The notes below the pieces were generated by a model, which was given only the letters and a program-made list of their open reading frames with translations, did not search any database and was not told the origin of the DNA. From Clostridia bacterium (GTDB lineage Bacteria > Bacillota > Clostridia > Christensenellales > UBA1242), in assembly GCA_028709705.1 (NCBI GenBank), contig JAQVWL010000003.1, positions 1-64,000 of the forward strand: 64,000 bases of DNA, given 5' to 3'. Shown here one piece after another: positions 32,198-54,990 of this stretch (position 1 is the stretch's first letter; each line of letters begins with the position of its first letter). Position numbers and translations under genes: made by a program.

Positions 32198-32228
32198 AAT
32201 AACAAAAATTTAATTTGTTATTTTTTTT
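32198..32228. terminator. Bidirectional terminator overlapping O-methyltransferase stop
   Basis: AATAACAAA-aatttaa-TTTGTTATT flanked by T-runs. Confidence 0.65.
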
Positions 32229-32902
32229 ATTAAAATAAGTCCGTCTTCAATATCAATTATTTTGCTTTCAAGACTTGGGTTGGATTGCACTGTTTCAATA
32301 AATTTTCGCAGTTTTAAAATTATGGTTCTGTGCTTATGTTTTGGATAAATATCAGATAAAACTTCGCCCATAAAAAGCACATTGTCTGCCAAAATCAGTC
32401 CATCTTTTTTTAAAAGTTTCAATAAATATGGCAGTTGTTCAAAATAATGAGATTTTGGACCATCTAAAAAAATAAAGTCAAACTGCTGTGGCTGATACAA
32501 GGTCGCAAATCCCCCGCTCCCGACGCAGTCGGGAGCAAAGCCCCTTTTCTCACAAAAGGGGCTTGATTTTTGCTCCCTCAAAAATCGGGGATTTGCTAGT
32601 TCCTTAACTATCTCGCTAGCATCTCCTTGCAATATTTCAACTCTATTTTCAAGTCCCAATTTTTTAAAGTTGTTTTTTGCAATTTCAACCATTGTTGGCA
32701 AAATTTCAACAGTTGTTAAAGTTGAATTTTTTGAGTTTAAAAGCATTAAACAACCAGAAAATCCTATTGCAGTTCCAATTTCCAAAATGTTTTTTGGGTT
32801 GTTTTGTTTTATCAAATCAATCAAAATTTGCCTTGATTGCGGTCTTAAAATTGGCACATTATTTGTTTTTGCAAATTCTTCAATTTCTTTCATTTTATGC
32901 AC
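32210..32902 (-). CDS. SAM-dependent O-methyltransferase with in-frame palindromic-element insertion
   Basis: ILEIGTAIGFSG, VEILPTMVEIAK, FDFIFLDGPKSHYFEQLPYLLKLLKKDGLILADNVLFMG; 32-aa foreign segment ANPRFLREQKSSPFCEKRGFAPDCVGSGGFAT. Confidence 0.9.
   Translation of the reverse strand: MHKMKEIEEFAKTNNVPILRPQSRQILIDLIKQNNPKNILEIGTAIGFSGCLMLLNSKNSTLTTVEILPTMVEIAKNNFKKLGLENRVEILQGDASEIVKELANPRFLREQKSSPFCEKRGFAPDCVGSGGFATLYQPQQFDFIFLDGPKSHYFEQLPYLLKLLKKDGLILADNVLFMGEVLSDIYPKHKHRTIILKLRKFIETVQSNPSLESKIIDIEDGLILIKKITN
32505..32596. repeat. Cloverleaf-like palindromic element inside O-methyltransferase CDS
   Basis: Outer 10-bp stem GCAAATCCCC/GGGGATTTGC enclosing three perfect hairpins of 8, 11 and 9 bp with 0-1 nt linkers. 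Confidence 0.85.
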
Positions 32903-48351: not shown

Positions 48352-48413
48352 TTTTCCTCCAATAAATATATCAAAAACTTTGCTTTTTTTGCAAAATTAT
48401 TGCTTTGAAAAAA

Positions 48414-48494
48414 TACGGAAGTGTGAGCAACGGCGAGCAAAAATGTTTGAAAAACATTTAAAAAATTTTAAAGAATTTAAAATTTACTTCCGCA
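48414..48494. repeat. Multi-hairpin element in rpsO-pnp intergenic / pnp leader
   Basis: Outer TACGGAAGT/ACTTCCGCA with inner perfect hairpins AAATGTTT-GAA-AAACATTT and AAATTTTAAA-GAA-TTTAAAATTT. Confidence 0.75.
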
Positions 48495-48503
48495 TTATAA
48501 ATA

Positions 48504-54599: not shown

Positions 54600-54730
54600 A
54601 TAAATAATTATAACTTAAAACAATTTCTTTTGCAACTTATATTAAAAAAAATAAATTTGCGAACAAAATGGGGGATTTGAGTGCCGATAAGCAACGATAT
54701 TTTGGTAGTAGTGCAGTATATTTATTTAGC

Positions 54731-54990
54731 AAGGGTCAACGAGGACGTAGCAATTGACAAGGGTCAACGGGGACGTAGCAATTGACAGGAGCCGAAGGCG
54801 AACGGTCAAGCGTGCTACGTCCCCTTGACCCGTAAACGCGGTATTGCAAACAACAGGTCAAGGGGACGTAGTCAACTGACCCTTCGCTAACGCTTCGTGT
54901 CAGTTACTACCGTCCCCGTTGACCTTCGCTACAGTGCAGTTACTAGCGTCCCCGTTGACCTCCGCTTTGCTCCCGTGTCAGTTACTAGCA
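54731..54990. repeat. GC-rich cluster of alternating-orientation short repeats, core GGTCAA(C)GGGGACGTAGcaacTGAC
   Basis: Six recognisable core copies (three direct, three inverted) plus a partial copy; much higher GC than surroundings. Confidence 0.88.

Follow-up and report, generated by a model that had tools for sequence, protein, structure and literature searches.

In a Clostridia genome, we identified a 92-nt cloverleaf-shaped DNA element lying in frame within an O-methyltransferase gene. The element is located in the 64,000-nt stretch of contig JAQVWL010000003.1 (assembly GCA_028709705.1) that was analysed here as the window and to which all coordinates refer (Table 1). This element and at least ten others of the same shape are best read as one family of short palindromes, specific to the lineage, whose high GC content stands out in a reduced and AT-rich Clostridia genome. 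Stretches fetched for the analysis carry L-number labels and belong to the same genome unless stated otherwise.

Read on the minus strand, the window element forms 38 Watson-Crick pairs and adopts a near-gapless four-way junction with two gaps of one base each. The coordinates, strand and arms proposed in the first-pass annotation matched the sequence exactly, and the 38 pairs agree with its estimate that about 76 of the 92 nt could pair. By RNAfold, the segment 32500-32600 had a folding energy of -59.6 kcal/mol, whereas its dinucleotide shuffles averaged -30.9 (z -8.39) and none of 200 was as low, and the element was the strongest fold of all 100-base windows scanned along the 64 kb. Its GC content was 54% compared to 32% for the window, which agrees with the GC enrichment originally claimed. 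The complementarity reported between the loop of the first hairpin and an arm of the third is real and longer than described: GGGAGCAAA, which overlaps loop 1, and TTTGCTCCC at arm 3 are perfectly reverse-complementary. This pair would fit internal copying, but it could be due to chance. An Rfam search of the element returned no family above the gathering score.

Table 1. Features of the window element and its host gene (window coordinates; arms in minus-strand reading).
Feature	Position	Strand	Evidence
Cloverleaf element (four-way junction), in frame	32505..32596	-	Sequence, RNAfold, fold-based scan; missing from orthologues
Outer stem, 5' arm GCAAATCCCC	32587..32596	-	Sequence and fold
Hairpin 1, GATTTTTG-AGGGAG-CAAAAATC	32565..32586	-	Sequence and fold
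Hairpin 2, AAGCCCCTTTT-GTGAG-AAAAGGGGCTT	32538..32564	-	Sequence and fold
Hairpin 3, GCTCCCGAC-TGC-GTCGGGAGC	32516..32536	-	Sequence and fold
Outer stem, 3' arm GGGGATTTGC	32505..32514	-	Sequence and fold
Part homologous to dispersed repeat CAAATCCCC.ATTTTT...AAAAATCAAGCCCC...GGCTTTGC	32532..32596	-	Alignment scores against structure-preserving null
230-aa O-methyltransferase, trmR/yrrM type (tRNA 5-hydroxyuridine methyltransferase relative), host of insert	32210..32902	-	ORF; PF01596; PDB matches

The reading frame of the host gene is open throughout the element. The encoded protein matches PF01596 (E 9e-26), and its best PDB matches are 5zw3 (YrrM) and 8k1f (tRNA 5-hydroxyuridine methyltransferase), both of which aligned only on either side of the insert; since these are its best solved relatives, homology suggests that the gene is trmR. 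Matches to the host protein were found in 65 of the 121 genomes searched, stopping at residue ~102 and restarting at ~139. The alignment of orthologues showed a short loop in 28 of 29 sequences where the window protein has ~37 residues, confirming the earlier claim that the insertion occupies a position at which the family normally has only a short loop. Judged by the orthologues, the net insertion is ~93-105 nt; as 92 is not a multiple of three, it takes in a few more bases than the element itself. The encoded peptide occurs once, no other protein of the genome carrying the same segment. The remaining one of the 29 orthologues, from G013, a genome of another genus in the same family, has its own expansion of ~25 residues at the same trmR loop (stretch L012), suggesting that this loop tolerates length change. 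The G013 expansion was rejected as a second case of insertion, being AT-rich, unstructured and unrelated to the window insert. A tRNA-like or autoregulatory role, suggested by the tRNA methyltransferase host, was also dropped: the loops show no tie to tRNA, and the other ten copies adjoin unrelated genes.

We scanned 820 kb of the 924-kb genome (89%, fetched as stretches of a fragmented assembly) for an outer stem and hairpins around a tight junction, allowing Watson-Crick pairs only and 0-3 junction bases. This fold-based scan recovered 11 cloverleafs (8 in 406 kb, 2 more in 213 kb and 1 more in 200 kb), with L045:14440 left out of the count as a tRNA-containing false case picked by the scan's strict rule. 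All 11 combine a single outer stem with exactly three hairpins within 84-111 nt, and most have mismatch-free arms. Their GC content is 0.42-0.69 in this 32% GC genome, and their folds range from about -47 to -78 kcal/mol. The same scan detected no cloverleaf in 394 kb from 7 relatives including two congeners, in 306 kb from 20 relatives, or in 197 kb of a more distant goat-rumen Clostridia genome, a comparison of 897 kb in 28 other genomes in which relatives were sampled unevenly (3.8-80 kb each). Markov sequence likewise yielded none (820 kb, of which 200 kb matched the composition of the elements themselves), and GC-rich perfect hairpins were ~20-fold above Markov expectation in the genome. 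A chance origin is excluded by these simulations. We also built a covariance model on synthetic sequences with this architecture but abandoned it for the fold-based scan: it recovered only 2 of the 8 elements known at that stage, plus one weak hit, because sequence-based filters discard the others.

About 89% of the genome is coding. The other ten cloverleafs are all intergenic, each at -12 to +32 nt relative to a stop codon; the window copy is the only one of the 11 inside a gene. Their sites include the position after what we take to be dnaK (dnaK/dnaJ), the gap between the presumed mnmE and mnmG, and a position just before a ribosome-binding site, the gene names being given by sequence recognition. 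The simplest reading of this placement is that selection removes insertions or formations elsewhere, with the trmR loop as the exception. Alternatively, targeted formation near stop codons may account for it.

Comparison of the cloverleafs revealed that most are unlike one another, with similarity little above a structure-preserving null, and that no two copies in the 820 kb are identical. Local alignment against structure-preserving shuffles identified L054/L095 (z 9.1) and L045/L055:16869 (z 7.6) as homologous; L095 and L161 are likewise homologous (81% over 86 nt, in inverted orientation), and single arms are common to L052/L098 and L053/L098. MAFFT misaligned L054, L095 and L161, and the arms were instead compared arm by arm and by local alignment. 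Differences within homologous arms were two-sided, with both strands of a pair changed. In addition, a pair has been gained or lost symmetrically between the arms of L095 and L161, and between L054 and L095 the middle hairpin has been replaced outright (18 versus 10 pairs). Two-sided differences are partly unavoidable because both partners are almost perfectly paired: across all elements, 437 Watson-Crick pairs stand beside only 4 internal mismatches, two of which are G.T. What is informative is that pairing has stayed perfect through changes of sequence. The same two-sided pattern would be expected under selection on structure.

The first ~65 nt of the window element aligned to a dispersed repeat with scores of 36-44, compared to a mean of ~14 and a maximum of 29 in 1000 structure-preserving shuffles. 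The repeat pattern, which was drawn up after the sequences were seen, has three exact matches in the genome. It was present in 0 of 310 other genomes of the same family, and the 18-base core of the repeat in 0 of 393 other genomes of the class. The pattern was found once in GTDB, in the goat-rumen Clostridia MAG RGIG3617, on a short contig with two copies; transfer between rumen Clostridia or binning contamination is a possible source. On this 2.1-kb contig of a 54-58% GC genome, inverted copies of the repeat (L134:66-125 and 1626-1687) lie on either side of a short gene segment. None of the dispersed copies is a cloverleaf; therefore, the closing arm and the perfect hairpins were either acquired by the window copy or lost from the others. 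The first-pass annotation took the lack of a second copy in this or related genomes as counting against its reading. For the full-length element, blastn indeed returned none in the genome or in 120 relatives, and phage and plasmid collections gave no match, but relatives of the first ~65 nt and further instances of the architecture were found.

Other palindromic sequences were observed alongside the cloverleafs. Arrays of differing short GC-rich hairpins with a near-constant TGATGA/TCATCA spacer occur at L053:13970-14110, L053:10360-10490, L052:4211-4328 and L086:19400-19480, and L055:4496-4650 carries a variant hairpin array with the spacer GATGATATGC. The cloverleafs L052:15035 and L098:2792 contain some of the same hairpin words as the arrays (GAGCAC, GTGTGCC). 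Another family of palindromic repeats, multi-copy and intergenic, is built around GGTCAACGGGGACG.TAG.AACTGAC and occurs at 54665-54989 of the window, L052:18249-18669, L054:7323-7607 and other sites; as many as ~19 overlapping matches were counted in 406 kb. Within the window, positions 48412-48496 (minus strand) hold an AT-rich imperfect relative of cloverleaf L055:16869 (69% over 86 nt; covariance-model match of 24 bits), located ~60 nt upstream of a putative polynucleotide phosphorylase gene. L102:17670-17728, between divergent genes, is a two-hairpin partial relative of cloverleaf L055:10087 (84% over 58 nt).

Mobility genes were assessed with four Pfam families, Y1_Tnp, RVT_1, Transposase_20 (IS110) and rve. 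PF01797 (Y1_Tnp/RAYT) was absent from the genome and present in control genomes and two congeners, so that the associated RAYT which the first-pass annotation proposed to look for was not found. RVT_1, Transposase_20 and rve also gave no match in this genome, which is 99.5% complete, and the element flanks, inspected by eye, showed no consistent target-site duplication. Because these four families yielded no candidate transposase or reverse transcriptase, we take the route to be non-autonomous, by which a copy of the dispersed palindromic repeat would have been introduced into the trmR loop. Fold-back template switching, in which one arm serves as the template for the other, would then have extended and perfected its arms as a DNA-level process, and sequence would be exchanged one arm at a time with the four-way shape retained. 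Template switching that renders inverted-repeat arms identical, also in coding sequence, is published (PMC8604942). The insert would survive through the kept frame and the loop's tolerance of length change, and selection would elsewhere leave cloverleafs only in the short stretches that follow stop codons; we propose no benefit to the enzyme. Fold-back copying accounts for the perfect arms, not by itself for always exactly three hairpins. On balance, we lean towards non-autonomous dispersal and fold-back perfection of the arms of a lineage-specific cloverleaf family, in which mobility and function are putative and each species is represented by one genome.

A less probable proposal is that of a shape-defined selfish or recombinogenic DNA element, whose Holliday-like junction with three hairpins would be recognised by a putative host or element protein, whose arms would be replaced and perfected by copying with the shape kept, and which could enter reading frames. 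It is unlikely that the cloverleafs are RNA-level functional elements which, in mRNA between operon genes, protect or process transcript ends as REPs do, the trmR copy being misplaced or regulatory. Such a role would be suited by the position of the ten intergenic copies immediately 3' of stop codons, in several cases between same-strand genes (as at dnaK/dnaJ and mnmE/mnmG) or just before a ribosome-binding site, and by their strong folds. RNA families usually show a clear share of G.U pairs, whereas the cloverleafs have only 2 internal G.T beside their 437 pairs; since G.U pairs are almost absent, the structured-RNA role raised by the first-pass annotation appears less likely than a DNA-level cause. 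In addition, most copies share no sequence with one another, no Rfam family was matched, the flanks contain no consistent T-run for termination, and the sampled congeners have no cloverleaf.

We also doubt that an active non-autonomous transposable element (MITE- or IS200/REP-like) is at work, mobilised by a transposase that recognises the shape of the four-way junction but has been lost or escaped detection. The lack of a match to any of the four mobility-gene families, of a consistent target-site duplication and of two identical copies argues against it, despite the defined boundaries, the recurrent architecture, the insertion within a gene, a burst limited to one genome, the inverted homologous copies at unlinked loci and the repeat shared with the GC-richer goat-rumen genome. 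That the cloverleafs are local mutational products only, each having arisen in place by repeated fold-back copying with no common origin, is quite improbable: the three clear homologous pairs, the homology of the window copy to the dispersed repeat and the constant number of arms weaken this account, which can draw on the low similarity of most element pairs and on the words shared inside the window copy. Chance or an assembly artefact is scarcely credible; the assembly is fragmented, but eleven cases lie on different contigs with none in simulations or relatives, and in trmR the frame is kept with orthologous sequence on both sides.

The first-pass annotation compared the insert to the Rickettsia palindromic elements (RPEs). 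RPEs and Wolbachia protein-coding palindromes are ~100-150 bp long and occur in intergenic regions and in frame in conserved genes, the enzyme tolerating the insert in the tested case; the first survey of RPEs listed 19 frames (PMC2229807). The comparison holds insofar as a GC-rich palindrome lies in frame in the loop of a conserved protein (in one gene only), is missing from orthologues and has relatives in the genome. However, RPE copies share sequence and recur in many genes, whereas here mostly the shape is shared, the full window element is unique by blastn with relatives for its first ~65 nt only, the peptide is found in one protein, and the related elements, 10 of the 11 cloverleafs, are intergenic at gene ends. 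RPEs fold as long stem-loops, in contrast to the four-way junctions of this Clostridia lineage. Because it has no full second copy and its peptide occurs once, the window element is not a repeat that is defined by its sequence and spreads through many genes.

Yeast mitochondrial GC clusters and double-hairpin elements are GC-rich in an AT-rich genome and mostly intergenic, with stems constrained as structure and palindromic modules that merge and shuffle (PMC4478555). The cloverleafs resemble them in GC enrichment and intact stems; however, GC42 and similar clusters have a high-copy consensus whereas the cloverleafs are mostly dissimilar, and no constant form of an outer stem with three hairpins is described for GC clusters. 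REPs are 20-40 bp with a common consensus and GTAG or CGTC tags (PMC3733652). As in REPs and BIMEs, the cloverleafs are short intergenic palindromes at gene 3' ends (10 of 10 intergenic copies near a stop codon), but the genome has no Y1 transposase, and by eye only, no tag at the palindrome foot is common to the flanks. Yersinia YPAL/RU-2 and other small bacterial repeats are structured, dispersed, 100-200 bp long and contain internal inverted repeats (PMC2229807); they differ in being sequence-conserved with target-site duplications, and are not variable-sequence four-way junctions. In the open-access literature, no bacterial repeats with a cloverleaf or four-way-junction form comparable to these were found. 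Our best reading is that the window element behaves like RPEs or mitochondrial GC clusters and belongs to neither.

Known dispersed palindromes are recognised by their common sequence; ordinary repeat finders would overlook a family whose sequence turns over while it holds to a precise four-way-junction shape. The homologous cloverleaf pairs offer natural material for telling selection on structure from copy-correction of inverted repeats. The trmR copy represents a palindromic element adding a protein segment, outside the Rickettsiales.
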